Source: Westiellopsis prolifica IICB1
GTDB taxonomy: Bacteria > Cyanobacteriota > Cyanobacteriia > Cyanobacteriales > Nostocaceae
Assembly (NCBI RefSeq): GCF_004323185.1
Contig: NZ_NAPS01000001.1
Span: 2,988,645 to 3,042,570, forward strand
Length of the DNA stretch: 53,926 nt
Direction: 5' to 3'
This document shows positions 36-9,594 of the stretch, piece by piece. The translations under genes and the position numbers were made by a program. How positions within the stretch are numbered: position 1 is the first letter of the stretch; every line of letters begins with the position of its first letter. The notes under the pieces were generated by a model. The model ran no database searches and was not told the origin of the DNA. It worked only from the letters and a program-made list of their open reading frames with translations.

Positions 36-137
36 AGTAATTTAGCTAGAACCGACACAAACCCCACGACTCACTCGTTCACAAAGTGTTCCCAAAGGTC
101 ATCGTAGGTACTTCACAAAACAATACAGTATCCTAAA

Positions 138-470
138 TTAACTTTCCCCGATCCCCGATCCCCGATCCCCGATCCCCGATCCCCTATCCCCTTTCCCCTT
201 TCCCCTACTTTCCCAGCGCCACAAAAAGACAGCTACCGTAATGACTCCGAGTTGTAGTGCAAAATTGGGTAAAGCTGTCTCAAGATTACGTCCAGCTAAG
301 ACTTGGAAAAAGAAGATAAATGCACCAATGAAACCCGAAGCACCACCAGCAATGTAAATAAATTTACGTATGTTGCGATAAGGGGCTGCGATTTCTGCTT
401 TCAGACGAGCGTATTGTTCTGGGTTAACTGAACTTTGGGATGAGCGGTTTTCCGGGTTTGGTTGTACCAT
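138..470 (-). CDS. DUF3493-family small membrane protein
   Basis: A 110-residue protein with two predicted membrane segments (about residues 36-58 and 66-84) separated by a short loop. The core (PEQYARLKAEIAAPYRNIRK followed by a glycine-rich first helix) matches what I recall of the DUF3493 family, which in plants includes a photosystem II accumulation factor. A role in thylakoid biogenesis is only inferred. The last 20 or so residues (Gly/Lys/Arg/Asp/Ser rich) are translated from tandem CCCCGAT heptamers at 146-207, so the native tail has been replaced or extended by a repeat. The gene is divergent from tRNA-Thr, with 34 bases between them. Confidence 0.75.
   Translation of the reverse strand: MVQPNPENRSSQSSVNPEQYARLKAEIAAPYRNIRKFIYIAGGASGFIGAFIFFFQVLAGRNLETALPNFALQLGVITVAVFLWRWESRGKGKGDRGSGIGDRGSGIGES
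146..207. repeat. CCCCGAT/CCCCTTT heptamer array inside the DUF3493 gene
   Basis: About five CCCCGAT units grade into CCCCTAT and CCCCTTT units. Because the period is 7, the array reads through all frames. Here it encodes the C-terminal tail of the gene at 138-470. Confidence 0.9.
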
Positions 471-504
471 AATATTAAATACGCTATAATTACTGACTGT
501 TTGT

Positions 505-576
505 GCCGATGTGGCTCAGTGGTAGAGCACTCGATTCGTAATCGAGCGGTCGCGGGTTCAAATCCCGCCATCGGCT
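505..576 (+). tRNA. trnT: tRNA-Thr (anticodon CGU)
   Basis: A 72-nt cloverleaf. The acceptor stem GCCGATG (505-511) pairs with CATCGGC (569-575), with U discriminator at 576. The anticodon stem CTCGA/TCGAG carries the loop TTCGTAA, so the anticodon is CGT and reads ACG (Thr). The T arm has the expected GGTTCAAATCC core. The 3' CCA is not encoded. No integrated element is seen at its 3' end. Confidence 0.97.
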
Positions 577-589
577 TTGTCGAAACAAT

Positions 590-632
590 AAGGTATGCAG
601 GCTATAACAAAGACTTTTGTTCTGCATACCTT
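590..632 (+). terminator. Stem-loop downstream of tRNA-Thr
   Basis: AAGGTATGCAG (590-600) and CTGCATACCTT (622-632) form a perfect 11-bp stem, with an inner AACAAA/TTTGTT stem in the loop. It is followed by an AT-rich stretch with only short U runs. The position 14 nt after the tRNA suggests a terminator, but a dispersed hairpin repeat is possible. Confidence 0.5.
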
Positions 633-722
633 AATTATTTAAATACACTCAAATACGCTTGAATATACTTCTACGTACATTTGATTTAGGTCAAATTTAG
701 GACATCTCATTTGATCCAAGCC

Positions 723-890
723 ATGATCGGGCAAACTCATCGCAAGCGCGATTTGAATGGTGGAAAATCTGGATTTTATTTATTCATCCCCCACACCGAA
801 GAAACTTTCTACTTTGGTGCAAGAGAAGAGCTACTTAACCAAATCCAGGAAGTAAAAAAACAAACCATCAATCACCAATGGTCCTTCTAA
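723..890 (+). CDS. Small hypothetical protein (55 aa), possible gene remnant
   Basis: The reading frame from ATG 723 gives a basic N-terminus and a segment reading SGFYLFIPHTEETFYFG followed by an amphipathic helix, a composition more protein-like than a random frame. The same frame is open upstream to position 690, with TTG 711 as an alternative start. No clear Shine-Dalgarno sequence is visible. It overlaps the 3' end of the convergent pentapeptide gene by 23 bases. I do not recognise the family. It may be the surviving C-terminal piece of a larger gene, or spurious. Confidence 0.3.
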   Translation: MIGQTHRKRDLNGGKSGFYLFIPHTEETFYFGAREELLNQIQEVKKQTINHQWSF

Positions 891-1722
891 CCAAAATAGC
901 CACCAGCAAACTCAACATCAAATAACCAAGGAAGGCTTCAGTCGCAGCAAAGATTCTGCCAATAGCAGATACAGTTTGAATTTCACTACCAGCAGAGGTG
1001 AACGTCATAATCGAAAAATAAAGTCCATTCCATAAACCCGGCTTGTTCAGAGAACCAACAAAGCCTGCATACAACAGCCCAAATACAACAACTATCACCA
1101 AACAACAAAGGAAAAATCGAGAAAATGAACGTCCATAATCACATGTAATTTCCAAAACCTTTGCCAACACAGGATGCTTAGTCTTAAGGTTTTCAATTCG
1201 CTGTTGGTTGGTTGCATAGTCTTGCAACATTGCAGCTAAATTGAAATCGATGACTTTAAGACTGACTCCAACAAAACTGGTTTTGTTATTAAACTCCGCC
1301 TTGTCAATCAGCACATCATTCATCCTGGCATAGTCAAAACAAGTGCCTTTGATGTTTGATTCAGAAAGCCAAGAATCTGTTAGATTGGTACTCTTGAGGT
1401 TGGCGTTTTCCAGGTTTGAACTAAAAAAGTCAATTTTGCTTAAGTCGGCTCTGTACAAATCTTCCCCAACCAGCGATATTCCACGAATATCTGTATGTCC
1501 GTAATATCTGCCAACCATTTCATCTAGTATTTGTCTTTTGTATCCATTTGCTCGCCACCTAGTCAAAATGTGCTGGCCTGTTGGGGTAAACCATCTGCTT
1601 TTGAGTTGCTCTTTTGTCAGATTTACAATTGTCAGCAATTCATCGTCCCCTGTATCCAGGTTAATGCCTGGATTTATAAAAAACTCTGGGGTAATTTTTA
1701 AATTTTGACCTTGGGACTGCAT
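868..1722 (-). CDS. Pentapeptide-repeat protein with two-TM ion-channel-like C-terminus
   Basis: 284 residues. The N-terminal 75 residues are soluble and carry a motif seen in cyanobacterial pentapeptide proteins (LTRWRANGYKRQ). Residues about 80-160 contain A(D/N)LxxxxF-type pentapeptide repeats (DLYRADLSKIDF, NLENANLKSTNL) that should form a right-handed beta-helix. Two membrane helices (about 203-222 and 258-278) flank a re-entrant pore-like segment, the Ion_trans_2 layout of K+ channels. The expected TVGYGD selectivity filter is replaced by FTSAGSEI (241-248), so K+ selectivity cannot be assumed. No RCK/TrkA domain is present. The protein may be a non-selective channel or a membrane-anchored scaffold. 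Confidence 0.8.
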   Translation of the reverse strand: MQSQGQNLKITPEFFINPGINLDTGDDELLTIVNLTKEQLKSRWFTPTGQHILTRWRANGYKRQILDEMVGRYYGHTDIRGISLVGEDLYRADLSKIDFFSSNLENANLKSTNLTDSWLSESNIKGTCFDYARMNDVLIDKAEFNNKTSFVGVSLKVIDFNLAAMLQDYATNQQRIENLKTKHPVLAKVLEITCDYGRSFSRFFLCCLVIVVVFGLLYAGFVGSLNKPGLWNGLYFSIMTFTSAGSEIQTVSAIGRIFAATEAFLGYLMLSLLVAILVRRTIGD

Positions 1723-2009
1723 AAGCCAACTCGACCATCGCGACCAACTTTACTTTCAATCGTGCCAGGATATCAAATTTCCTTGTCGTTTTTCACCACT
1801 CCGACAGTAAACTTAACCTGGCTCAATTCAAAGGATCTAATTACCGCATTCGGTAATTAGAAAAATAAAAACCGTCACTCGTGACGGCTCACTTGCTCAA
1901 ATCATTGCTCAATTCAATACGGTTGGTGTTAGTCGATAAGCGCAAAAGCTCAAAACTTTAAAACTGAACCGTATTGACTGATAACTGATAACTGATAACT
2001 GATAACTGT
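1723..2009. other. Spacer with two perfect hairpins and an ACTGATA repeat
   Basis: CTAATTACCG (1837-1846) and CGGTAATTAG (1851-1860) form a perfect 10-bp stem with a 4-nt loop. CCGTCAC (1872-1878) and GTGACGG (1881-1887) form a second hairpin. Four ACTGATA heptamers at 1977-2006 run up to the stop codon of csaB. No gene is seen. Confidence 0.8.
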
Positions 2010-5532: not shown

Positions 5533-6723
5533 TCAGACAATCCGGCTATTGCTTAGGAGGCTCTGAGCTTTAAGAACGGAATGCCCTACCGCCCTTTTTC
5601 TTATATTGATCGCTGCATTGTGATCACGGTCTAGATAACAACCGCACTGGCAAGAGTGCCATCTTTCATGCAGTTTTTTAGGAACTTTCACCCCACAACT
5701 AGAACAGTCCTGAGAAGTACCGTCAGCGTTCACAGCTATTACCAACAACCCAGCATTTTCGGCTTTGGTGGTTAGAATTGACAGGAAACTTGACCATCCA
5801 GCATCATGCATAGATAAGGCAAGTCGCGTTCTTGAAAGTCCTTTAACGTTGAGGTTTTCATGAGCCACAACATCATATTTTGTCAGCAATTGTTTTGCTG
5901 TTTTGAAATGAAAATCTCTGCGTTGATCAGCAACTTTCTTGTGTTGCTTACCCAGTTGTTGAACAGATTTCTTCCTACGGTTACTACCTTTCTTACGACG
6001 AGAAACCCGTTTTTGGATAACCCGTAATCGTTTCTGTGCTTTGCGATAATGTTGAGGGATTGCAACAGCTTCACCTTCAGAAGTGGTGAGAAATTCCTTT
6101 AAACCCATATCAATACCTATTATTGATTCAGGATTGATGTCAGGTTTGACACTAGGGACTGTTGCATCTTCAAGGCTTAAGATTATATAGTAACCATCAG
6201 CTTTTTTGGTAACAGAAGCAGTTTTTATTTTGAAACCATCTGGCAAGGGGCGATGCAAAATAATTTTTACTTTACCAAACATTGGAAGATTAATTAAGTT
6301 CCCTTGCAAACATCCATCTTTCATTTGTGGATAAGTAAAAGTCCGATAACGGTTACGAGATTTAAATCTCGGTCTACCACTACGATTTCCTTTACTATCT
6401 CCGCTTAAAAAGCGGTCAAATGTTACCTTAGCTCTTTTAACAATATCCTGTAGAACCTGTGAATAAATTTCACCGTACCAAGGATGAGTTTTCTTGAGCA
6501 ATGGTAAAGTTTTCTTTTGGCTGTAATAATCTGGATTATTTCTTAACTCAGGCAGATGACAAACAAGCGGACAAGCATTAATTGAACAACGATTTTGTTC
6601 ATACCAATTAAATCTATCTGCCAGTAAATAATTATATTGAGCGCAAAGCATAGACAACCATCGGTCTATTTCAGTAGCTTGTTGCTTTGTTGGACGTAGT
6701 TTGTATTGGTACGCTGTTCTCAC
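5533..6723 (-). CDS. tnpB: TnpB RNA-guided nuclease of an IS200/IS605-type element
   Basis: 396 residues from the GTG at 6723, chosen because an AAGGAGG Shine-Dalgarno (6735-6741) lies 10 nt upstream and the product then begins (V/M)[14 protein letters not shown] like other TnpBs. An upstream ATG (6747) would add 8 residues. The N-terminal OrfB HTH domain is followed by a RuvC-like core with all three catalytic acids: Asp in GIDMG (residue 205), Glu in VVAHENL (289) and Asp in LDRDHNAA (367). The zinc ribbon CSSC...CQCGC is complete. TnpB is an omega-RNA-guided DNA nuclease that favours element retention. Length and motifs indicate an intact, possibly active protein. Confidence 0.95.
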
Positions 6724-6784
6724 TTGTTTATAACCTCCTTGATACATCTATGTTAGCATATGCGAGGAGACGTTGAGGATATTT

Positions 6785-7322: not shown

Positions 7323-7731
7323 GGGACAGTTATCAGTTATCCCTATTTGAAAAAAGAATGCGACAAATACACCATTTGTAGAGACGCGATAAATCGCGTC
7401 TTTAGCCAAGAATGTGTTACAGCATGAGGCGATCACAAAGATAGCTCAACAGGACTTACGCAAGATGTGACCTAAAACCTTATTCTTGCATTCTTGCGTA
7501 GAGGTAATTCATGAATTACCTCTACTTTCATTATGTTTTGCGTAAGTCCTGCTAAAGTTGCCTATCCCATCTTCAGTTTCTCAACAAAGTGAGAAAACTG
7601 ATTAGAAATAGTGTATGATAATCTGTAGAGAAAGACACCCGATTTTTTGAAAAATTTTTTAAAGCGCTTCGCGCAGGAAGAAGAGAAAAGAATAAGAAGT
7701 GTAAAGGGTAAAAGTGCGAGAGGAAAAAGGG
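7323..7731. other. Spacer between the xisI remnant and the kinase gene
   Basis: No gene seen. It holds an AGACGCGAT-AA-ATCGCGTCT palindrome (7383-7402) and the 102-bp MITE-like element at 7450-7551. From 7606 to 7731 only AT-rich and purine-rich sequence is visible, with no recognisable DGR template repeat. Confidence 0.7.
7450..7551. mobile_element. MITE-like element, 102 bp
   Basis: Perfect 14-bp terminal inverted repeats CAGGACTTACGCAA (7450-7463) and TTGCGTAAGTCCTG (7538-7551). A perfect 28-bp palindrome at 7498-7525 lies inside. No coding capacity and no clear target-site duplication. A solitary copy of one end occurs at 5226-5237. Confidence 0.75.
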
Positions 7732-9594
7732 CTAAGAAGTCCTCCCAACGGCACAGACAACACGAAAACCAATATCGAAGTTGAAGCTGCCGCGCCCCGC
7801 CCTATTGTTGCTGCTGCGAGACGCAGAACGGCAGAGTCCAGGATTGTCGTTCCAGGAACAGCCCCGCAGCACCCTTATATAATCGCCACCATCAAGCCAC
7901 GCACTACCGTCTGTCGGCGCTCCCTTGTAACTATTATGATTTTCATCTAGACACCATTCCCATACATTACCACACATATCGTATAAACCGAAAGAGTTTG
8001 GAGGAAATATTCCTACATCTGTTGTTTGTTTACGATATTCACCTTTTGGTGCAGAAGCGTAGGTGAAGTTTCCATTGTAATTTGCTAAAGCAGTGGTAAT
8101 CGTTTCGCCAAAATAAAATGGTGTAATGGTTCCTGCACGAGCTGCATATTCCCATTCTGCTTCACTAGGTAATCTATAAGTGCGTCCTGTCTTGTTACTC
8201 AACTCTTCACAGAATTTTACAGCATCATTCCAAGATACTCGTTCTACAGGTCGTTTTTCCCCCTGAAATCTGGAAGGGTTATTACCCATAATTGCTTGAT
8301 ACTGTGCTTGGGTAACTTCATACTTACCCATGAAAAATCCAGGAACTGTTACTTGATGTTGCGGCCCTTCATTGTCAAATCTTCCTGCTTCCTTTGCTGG
8401 TGAACCCATGAGAAATTTACCATCTGGTATCCGCACCATTTCCAAGGTGAGGCCATTCCCCAAGTTTTCCACAAAGTATTCTGCTTGATGGTCGTCATGT
8501 TTGGTGATGTTTCCTGTTGCATCGACGGTGACGGTTTCAAATGGAAAGGTTTGTAGAGATAGTCCCTGTGAAGTGGCTAACTGTTTTGGGGTTGGCGAAG
8601 ACGTTGGCGAGAACCCTGGTGTATCTGAGACATTGGGATTAGGTTCTGATTTTTTGGAAAGTAACCGTCCTCCCACAACTGCTAAACCAAAACCAGCACC
8701 CACTAAACCCAAGGTTTGAATTATTCTTCGTCGCGGTACTTGTGGGGTTGGAGGTGGAGGAGGTGGTGGTGGAATTAGTATTTGCAGCGCGTCTTGTGCT
8801 GTTTGATAACGCTGACCATGATTAGAGCGTACCATATTGGTTAAAACCCCAGCCAGTCTATCACTGACATTTGTCCACTGCCGCCAGATAACTTCGCCTG
8901 TGGTAGAATCTTCTGGCAATTGATGAGGATTGATTCCTGTCAGTGCTTGGATACCCAACATTCCCACTGCATAAACATCACTACAAAGATTGGGTTTACC
9001 TTTGGCTTGTTCATTTGGCATATAGCCAGGAGTACCAATACAAACTGTAGAAGTTATTTGTCCTTGGCTGATTGTCATTCCTTGAATTTCTTTGACTGCG
9101 CCAAAGTCAATTAGCACTAACTTGCCATCTTGACGACGACGCATGATATTCTGCGGTTTAATATCCCGGTGAATAATTTTGTGTTGGTGAACAACTGCTA
9201 ATACTTCTAAAATTTCCTGTACCAGTTTCACCACTTCTGCTTCACTAAACTGCTTCCCTGGTGTCAGTTCTGTACTTAAGTCATACCCATCAACAAATTC
9301 TTGAACTAAATAAAATTCTCCGTTCTCCTCAAAGTGAGCAAATAACTTGGGAATTTGGTCACTGAGTTGTCCTAAACGGTAAAGAATTTCGGCTTCTCTG
9401 TCAAACAAATCTTTAGCAAATTGCAAAACTTGAGGATTGCGGTTTTGAGGAGAGAGTAGTTTAACAACACACTTCGGTTTGGGATTGGTGGGTATATCTA
9501 AATCTTCTGCCAAATAAGTCTCACCAAATCCACCCTTTCCCAAGAGTCTGATGATTTTGTAGCGATTACGGAGAATTGTGTCAGCCGGAAGCAT
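7732..9594 (-). CDS. Ser/Thr kinase fused to FGE/SUMF1-type (C-type lectin fold) domain; candidate DGR variable protein
   Basis: 620 residues. The kinase domain (about 10-272) has GKGGFGETY (19-27), Lys45, HRDIKPQN (142-149) and DFG (163-165), so it should be active. A run of eight prolines (275-282), a TM helix (about 293-311) and a Ser/Thr/Pro linker lead to an extracytoplasmic FGE-sulfatase type domain (about 375-620) with EMVRIPDGKFLMGS, RLPSEAEWEYAARAG and FGLYDMCGNVWEWC. The final segment (575-620) reads like a DGR variable region: between the fixed VLRGC...W and IGFRVVC blocks, 15 codons all end in C or T. A signalling kinase with a diversifiable extracellular binding domain is inferred. 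Catalytic FGE activity is unlikely for this class. Confidence 0.9.
   Translation of the reverse strand: MLPADTILRNRYKIIRLLGKGGFGETYLAEDLDIPTNPKPKCVVKLLSPQNRNPQVLQFAKDLFDREAEILYRLGQLSDQIPKLFAHFEENGEFYLVQEFVDGYDLSTELTPGKQFSEAEVVKLVQEILEVLAVVHQHKIIHRDIKPQNIMRRRQDGKLVLIDFGAVKEIQGMTISQGQITSTVCIGTPGYMPNEQAKGKPNLCSDVYAVGMLGIQALTGINPHQLPEDSTTGEVIWRQWTNVSDRLAGVLTNMVRSNHGQRYQTAQDALQILIPPPPPPPPTPQVPRRRIIQTLGLVGAGFGLAVVGGRLLSKKSEPNPNVSDTPGFSPTSSPTPKQLATSQGLSLQTFPFETVTVDATGNITKHDDHQAEYFVENLGNGLTLEMVRIPDGKFLMGSPAKEAGRFDNEGPQHQVTVPGFFMGKYEVTQAQYQAIMGNNPSRFQGEKRPVERVSWNDAVKFCEELSNKTGRTYRLPSEAEWEYAARAGTITPFYFGETITTALANYNGNFTYASAPKGEYRKQTTDVGIFPPNSFGLYDMCGNVWEWCLDENHNSYKGAPTDGSAWLDGGDYIRVLRGCSWNDNPGLCRSASRSSNNRAGRGSFNFDIGFRVVCAVGRTS
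7774..7848 (-). other. Candidate DGR variable region (VR) in the kinase-FGE gene
   Basis: Codons for residues 582-584, 587, 592, 594-597 and 602-607 are all NNY: aac, gac, aat, ctc, tct, agc, agc, aac, aat, ggc, agc, ttc, aac, ttc, gat. They are interspersed with fixed codons (tgg, cct, gga, tgc, cgt, gcg, agg, ggg). This is the signature expected when AAY codons in a template repeat are adenine-mutagenised. The invariant block after 7774 (IGFRVVC...) would correspond to the homing (IMH) side. Neither template repeat nor reverse transcriptase was found in the window. Confidence 0.75.

Follow-up and report, generated by a model that had tools for sequence, protein, structure and literature searches.

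Which template wrote the variable region (VR) at the 3′ end of a kinase gene of Westiellopsis prolifica IICB1, and is that template still present in the cell? The gene lies in the window, i.e., the whole 53,926-nt stretch of DNA that was analyzed (Table 1). Its protein combines a kinase domain, assigned to the kinase fold by Pfam and carrying HRD and DFG motifs visible by eye, with an FGE domain. The FGE domain can be aligned to 2y3c, a DGR variable protein of solved structure, and the alignment (5.3e-25) includes the VR at the C-terminus; like the Pfam match, this is a match to a fold family and is read at the fold level only. By both comparisons, the window VR is the 3′ end of the gene for a C-type-lectin-like domain. 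A preliminary description of this DNA had given the open reading frame, its coordinates, and its codons correctly and had taken the C-terminus of the Ser/Thr kinase-FGE fusion to be a DGR VR. Pfam and the template match described below bear this out, and the gene is, as judged from sequence, a remote DGR target at its 3′ end.

The protein also contains a hydrophobic stretch starting with RRRIIQ, which we take to be a twin-arginine-like motif. Similar stretches (RRRIIQ, RRRVIQ, and RKQFLK) were seen by eye ahead of several FGE domains, in the window and at L230:7790-9007 and L234:13417-16356, and may act as internal export anchors. Adjoining the kinase-FGE gene is a TnpB-like gene (IS200/IS605 type).

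Table 1. Features of the window and of contig C13 of the same genome.
Feature	Coordinates	Strand	Details
Window: kinase-FGE gene (predicted remote DGR target)	7732..9594	-	620 aa
Window: protein kinase domain, residues 12-270	8785..9561	-	Pfam PF00069, 7.5e-35
Window: FGE-sulfatase domain (C-type-lectin-like fold), residues 385-613	7756..8442	-	Pfam PF03781, 5.3e-56
Window: hydrophobic stretch, starts RRRIIQ, twin-arginine-like	8660..8737, approximate	-	by eye in translation
Window: VR core, 116 nt, A+ type	7754..7869	-	15/33 A and 2/83 non-A differ from G200 template
Window: 6-nt block, within AGG GCG GGG CGC, absent from C13 template	7797..7802, exact placing ambiguous	-	
Window: constant 3′ anchor of VR (initiation-of-homing-like end)	7736..7770	-	25 nt and adjoining bases equal to C13 template
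Window: weak downstream hairpin GCGC-GAA-GCGC, 4-bp stem	7664..7674	-	-4.1 kcal/mol, z -0.84
Window: TnpB-like gene, IS200/IS605 type	5533..6747	-	Pfam OrfB_IS605, 6.3e-22
C13: end of FGE target gene, cis VR	104-234		
C13: avd	348-692		NF033474, 6.7e-43
C13: RT	689-1747		RVT_1, 1.8e-23
C13: A-rich repeat (TR)	1769-1899		

All 15 codons proposed as variable in the preliminary description are NNY, i.e., their third base is C or T. In codons 1–575 of the gene, the third base is a pyrimidine at a rate of 0.489, and 15 out of 15 would have a probability of about 2e-5 under blind codon choice, although the named codons were not blindly chosen. Over codons 575–607, 24 of 33 end in a pyrimidine, a count that none of the 542 upstream segments of equal size reaches.

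When window positions 7700–7900 were used as a DNA query against the own genome (G000), six places were found. Two of them are on C13, a 4,785-base contig cut inside its target gene, where they flank an RT. C13 holds RT, Avd, TR, and cis VR in one locus. Within the 116-nt core, the cis VR differs from the TR at 12 of 31 A and 0 of 85 non-A positions; over 131 bases, the counts are 12/34 A and 2/97 non-A, both of the latter at the 3′ end. The best NCBIfam match of the C13 RT is a group II intron model, below the cut-off. There are three RVT_1 matches in the genome, and at 1e-20 only C13 matches the C13 RT. C13 is the only intact DGR found in the own assembly, which has 29 contigs and is rated 99.98% complete. 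The expectation that a DGR RT and an A-rich template would occur somewhere in the genome is therefore confirmed, as both are on C13. Beyond the DGR, plasmid matches of C13 are only partial, covering no more than about 10% of the query among the plasmid records listed.

The resident template is, however, not the matching one. The preliminary description had anticipated a repeat about 90% identical to the VR and differing only at A, and had regarded the lack of any A-rich template in the genome as refuting its reading. An A-rich template does exist, but the best A-rich repeat, C13:1769-1899, is only 79% identical to the window VR, with a 6-nt gap and changes at 14/34 A and 11/97 non-A positions over 131 bases. 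In the core, 14 A and 4 non-A positions differ and the VR has 6 extra bases. Since the C13 template lacks this 6-nt block and shows 4 core non-A differences, the window VR as it now stands was not written from it, and it was rejected as the writer. Two other VRs of the genome, both on contig C1, also depart from the C13 TR: the VR at 622 kb by 16 A and 3 non-A differences and a 6-nt gap, and the VR at 1197 kb by 17 A and 3 non-A differences without a gap. A DNA search of the own genome with the template of G200 (see below) at 1e-18 returned no second template, the four places found being the C13 TR and three VRs.

One could still suppose that the window VR is served in trans by the C13 DGR, the mismatches having arisen through drift of VR or template after the last write. 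This DGR appears intact, and its template is identical to the 3′ anchor of the window VR over 25 nt; with this anchor, the resident DGR could in principle still home at the window VR. Yet both the 6-nt block and the 4 core non-A sites that differ agree with another template type, termed A+. A block of the same 6-nt length is present in six VRs spread over all four genomes of the genus, i.e., G000 and three others (G001–G003), and is thus not private drift. Drift from the C13 template is therefore improbable.

The A+ template was predicted from the VRs and then located in relatives. A 30-nt template stretch was inferred from window-type VRs and searched for in 217 genomes of the family, allowing up to 3 mismatches, with the reversed pattern as a control. 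It was found in five of the 217 genomes, belonging to three genera: exactly in G107 and G171, with one mismatch in G105 and G200, and with two mismatches in G106. It occurred in none of the four genus genomes, and the reversed control gave 0 in every row. In G105, G106, G107, and G200, the stretch lies beside an RT 83–89% identical to the C13 RT. In G171, the fetched stretch around the match contains no RT, and one is found on another contig. Thus, the own genome, with two A+ VRs, holds an RT and a sister template on C13 and no A+ template that could be found.

The window VR aligns with the G200 template core without a gap, and the excess of changes at A (Table 1) has a p value of 4e-8. The two non-A changes are GGT to TGT (LRGG to LRGC) and CGT to CGC; since they remain against the best template, the exact template of the window VR has not been seen. 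Over 134 bases, the differences amount to 15/34 A and 8/100 non-A positions, with the additional non-A ones at the 3′ end. The G200 template has A at codon position 1 or 2 in 14 of the 15 named codons; codon 592 is TCT in G200 and TAT in the C13 and Fischerella NIES-4106 templates. Variable codons beyond the 15 are 586 (AAA to GGA) and 600 (GAG to GGG), both purine-ending, as well as 598. The statement that the VR differs at template adenines thus holds by counts against G200, but not strictly as "only", and the template concerned is in another genome.

Variation at A between homologues of different species, in line with the preliminary description, is evident from the VR at 1851 kb of G003, which differs from the window VR at 21 core positions, 20 of them on template A columns (p 7e-13). 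Against the six other A+ VRs, 20–26 A columns differ, and the variable codons are common to no compared VR. Across seven A+ VRs (the six genus VRs that carry the block, plus one of G023), variation touches 32 of the 33 A columns and 18 of the 83 non-A columns, so that non-A change among A+ VRs is also real. Collectively, the window VR agrees with the A-rich A+ template family at constant positions and is changed at template adenines. FGE relatives abound in the genomes examined, which might suggest that the VR is no DGR product and simply a fast-evolving FGE surface under selection. This can practically be dismissed, because the changes sit at template adenines, the exact predicted template stands elsewhere, and DGR machinery is in the genome; the template match already contradicts it.

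DGRs of this kind are also borne on plasmids. The G200 template with its flanks matches 14 of 72,556 plasmid records. Among them is plasmid3 of Fischerella sp. NIES-4106 (AP018301), which has avd, RT, target genes, and a template that includes the 6-nt block; the two VRs of this plasmid show 0 and 1 non-A core differences from this template. C13:235-1770, the avd-RT stretch, is 93.3% identical to the plasmid3 DGR. Given this identity, and with the block missing from the C13 template and present in that of plasmid3, the two DGRs are closely related sisters that carry distinct template alleles. Contig C3 of G003 (85 kb), which bears a DGR with another template type, is 94% identical to plasmid3 over about a quarter of the 18 kb tested. 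The common sequence is in part a 23S rRNA gene, and the rest includes an antirestriction gene and hypothetical genes. We infer that G003 C3 is a plasmid. A 23S rRNA gene is found near the DGR on both molecules, at L234:3487-5732 (G003 C3) and L237:4155-6173 (plasmid3, cut at the record end).

The window VR is very probably the imprint of a template not found in its own genome. An A+ DGR, formerly in the lineage, would have written the VR, either itself or by way of recombination with a further A+ VR gene; this DGR may since have been lost or replaced, or may lie on unassembled DNA. The VR would now be a frozen or slow-changing imprint, and the diversified FGE face would presumably bind a ligand and control the attached kinase. 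With 29 contigs and a C13 that is short and cut in its target gene, another DGR or plasmid may be missing from the assembly. The window gene could then be an ordinary active remote target, still diversified by an A+ template in the same cell, e.g., on an unassembled plasmid. In favor of this, C13 is a short, cut contig, the A+ and sister DGRs are plasmid-borne in relatives, and the own genome has two A+ VRs. Continued activity at the window VR is also favored by the open reading frame and by the 3′ anchor, which is common to the resident template. Nevertheless, an A+ template in the same cell is rather unlikely, given that no A+ template is found in an assembly of such rated completeness, that the three other genus genomes likewise hold A+ VRs without an A+ template, and that the downstream hairpin is weak. 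In phage BPP-1, the downstream hairpin is described as needed for efficient homing in the relevant part of PMC3240598, and a section of PMC12875486 calls it important, not strictly required. At C13 and at the 622 kb and 1197 kb VRs, hairpins have 6-bp stems with −7.2 to −8.9 kcal/mol and z values of −3.1 to −3.9. The target on contig C143 of G001, which shares the window's scaffold, folds no better than shuffled sequences (z −1.16).

VR typing in the genus covered 15 VRs of G000–G003, which were compared with 31 distinct A-rich sequences from 119 placed matches. These 31 are candidate templates, picked from the matches by A content (at least 26 A in the first 110 bases), and one of them, of G105, is 5′-truncated. 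The typing left out the VR-like ends of L014 (TIR-FGE), L081 (the G003 orthologue), and L084, the second VR in L057, and the second FGE gene in L230; the draft assemblies of G001 and G002 comprise 170 and 520 contigs, respectively. Four of the 15 VRs, all cis targets, show 0 non-A differences from a template of their own genome. For 10 of the 11 non-cis VRs, no exact own-genome template was found in these four related, partly draft genomes. Two of the 11 match templates of other genomes with 0 non-A differences, one of them on a plasmid: the VR of G001 C126 against the NIES-4106 plasmid template (17/32 A, 0/81 non-A) and the VR of G002 C157 against the G003 C3 template (17/32 A, 0/75 non-A). 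The latter template stretch is absent from G002 within 3 mismatches. At 1e-20, relatives of the C13 RT are not found in G002, and in G001 only as a 141-residue piece. At best, non-A differences number 2 in the window VR, 1 each in the 622 kb and G003 1851 kb VRs, 2 in G002 C193, 3 each in the 1197 kb and G001 C23 VRs, and 7 each in G002 C184 and G003 2387 kb. Among the A+ VRs, the latter two show the most, with 8 and 7 relative to their best or second-best template. What is new here is that the resident template mismatches remote VRs and that matches run across genomes.

The VR of G001 C143 shows 14 non-A differences and 2 gap positions at best among the typing set, while an A-rich copy 317 bases away in its own genome differs at 6 A only. 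Here (L051:2540-2971), VR and template-like copy have no RT between them, and the 5′ half of the copy equals the VR, including the variable codons, with the 6 A differences confined to the 3′ half; it is as if VR sequence had flowed back into the template. An A-rich, template-like relic in G002 C207 (L054, about 2503-2609) resembles the template at 4515 kb of G003. The first 29–33 codons of avd persist just 3′ of remote VRs at L012:3039-3125, L060:2419-2505, and L087:2907-3005; given these leftovers, some remote targets may be remnants of former DGR cassettes. In a TIR-FGE gene of the own genome (L014:874-2433, C1, about 199 kb), a VR-like end with repeated GTTGGTTTTCG reads past the usual stop.

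VR types cut across the scaffolds defined by flanking sequence. Scaffolds were grouped by 450 nt upstream and 160 nt downstream of the VRs, and loci were equated by collinear flanks; longer flank stretches give lower values in some cases (0.83–0.93). The locus at 622 kb, G001 C23, and G003 2387 kb has types A+, A, and A+ with identities of 0.91–0.93 upstream and 0.92–0.95 downstream. G001 C126 and G002 C193 are A+ and A (flanks 0.91 and 0.91), and the 1197 kb VR and G002 C184 are A and A+ (0.88 and 0.94), G002 C184 being on a 5.6-kb contig that starts there. The differences in these three groups comprise the 6-nt block, A sites, and some type-specific sites, as expected for homing from different templates. 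At a fourth locus, the TIR locus, type-B-like ends occur in G000, G001, and G003 and type C in G002 C157, with identities of 0.87 and 0.92 between G001 C143 and G002 C157. The N-terminal part of this locus also differs, being TIR in G000 and caspase-like, by eye, in G002. The VR type thus differs within all four locus groups compared.

The window gene itself is a composite. Its kinase is like that of a G003 gene (92%), its FGE body resembles the TIR-locus scaffold (0.86–0.88), its 3′ flank is 0.90–0.91 identical to those of G001 C143 and G002 C157, and its VR is of A+ type. The G003 orthologue (857 kb) ends in another VR-like sequence (GFRLVVFIV) and the G002 frame (C65) has no FGE domain, so that the orthologues failed as a direct test of variation in the window VR. 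In the window gene and G002 C157, donor-like sequence including the stop codon seems to pass the end of template homology, e.g., TAGCACTTGACACTTT versus TAGCCCTTGACACTTT, an alignment in low-complexity pyrimidine sequence. Recombination with another VR gene is simpler for these two genes, and direct retrohoming was not accepted as the sole cause of the type change in the window gene, since the stop codon and the bases past the homology look donor-derived. On this evidence, the A+ VR might have been copied into the window gene from a second A+ VR gene by ordinary gene conversion, retrohoming playing no part at this locus. The chance of this is considerable, though somewhat short of even: the 3′ junction is ambiguous by alignment, and the variable codons match no VR seen, implying that they were rewritten afterwards or that the donor is unseen.

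The reading of the window VR as the imprint of an absent A+ DGR suggests that DGRs are gained and lost over time, while the receptor genes that stay behind retain their mark. More tentatively, and with nearly even prospects, VRs could be interchangeable modules: mobile, often plasmid-borne DGRs would enter a cell, impose their own template type on the variable ends of chromosomally encoded FGE receptors (kinase, TIR, and caspase-like), and then be lost, each receptor keeping the imprint of the last writer. If so, the VRs of a chromosome would record which DGRs had once resided in the cell, and horizontal transfer could renew an immune-type repertoire. Two points become testable: the way in which a DGR acquires and abandons its targets, and the possible retuning of putative bacterial immune sensors by elements that travel on plasmids. 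No description of VR-type exchange was found in the portions of the literature covered, with subscription papers and preprints outside the scope.

Among known systems, Treponema denticola TvpA (PDB 2y3c) has an FGE-like fold that aligns with the window FGE domain including the VR end; unlike the window protein, it has no kinase in the aligned chain and comes from an unrelated host. For the Nostoc punctiforme DGR, adenine-specific variation was reported by culture resequencing (mBio 2025, PMC12691664); the sections of that report at hand place two targets at the DGR locus and describe no remote kinase target. In multicellular bacteria, the corresponding text of Dore et al. (2024, PMC10907252) presents CLec/FGE sensors fused to kinase, TIR, and peptidase parts as putative antigen sensors and judges trans targets by a perfect non-adenine match. 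At its DGR 7 locus, VRs match no template elsewhere in the genome; unlike for the window VR, structural variants of that locus supplied the template. Matches to other species or to plasmids, as in the present analysis, are not described in those parts of the article.

The closest precedents are the remote cyanobacterial targets in the relevant pages of Vallota-Eastman et al. (2020, PMC7517822), in which a C-terminal CLec module with the VR is grafted to a Ser/Thr kinase far from the RT. There, IS200/IS605 genes lie near remote targets, the Fischerella NIES-4106 plasmid DGR is named, a Nostoc PCC 7120 paralogue shows remnant TR-VR homology with no RT nearby, and the authors suggest that, after a favorable variant has arisen, the parts that drive diversification may be eliminated. 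The window gene, as a kinase with a C-terminal VR module and a TnpB-like neighbor of the IS200/IS605 type, is like these targets. Remote kinase targets in cyanobacteria are therefore already known, and the new part is VR exchange. As far as those pages go, a remote target was linked to a DGR of its own genome when identity exceeded 50%; in contrast, non-A typing identifies the resident template here as the wrong one and shows that one and the same locus carries different VR types in different species.
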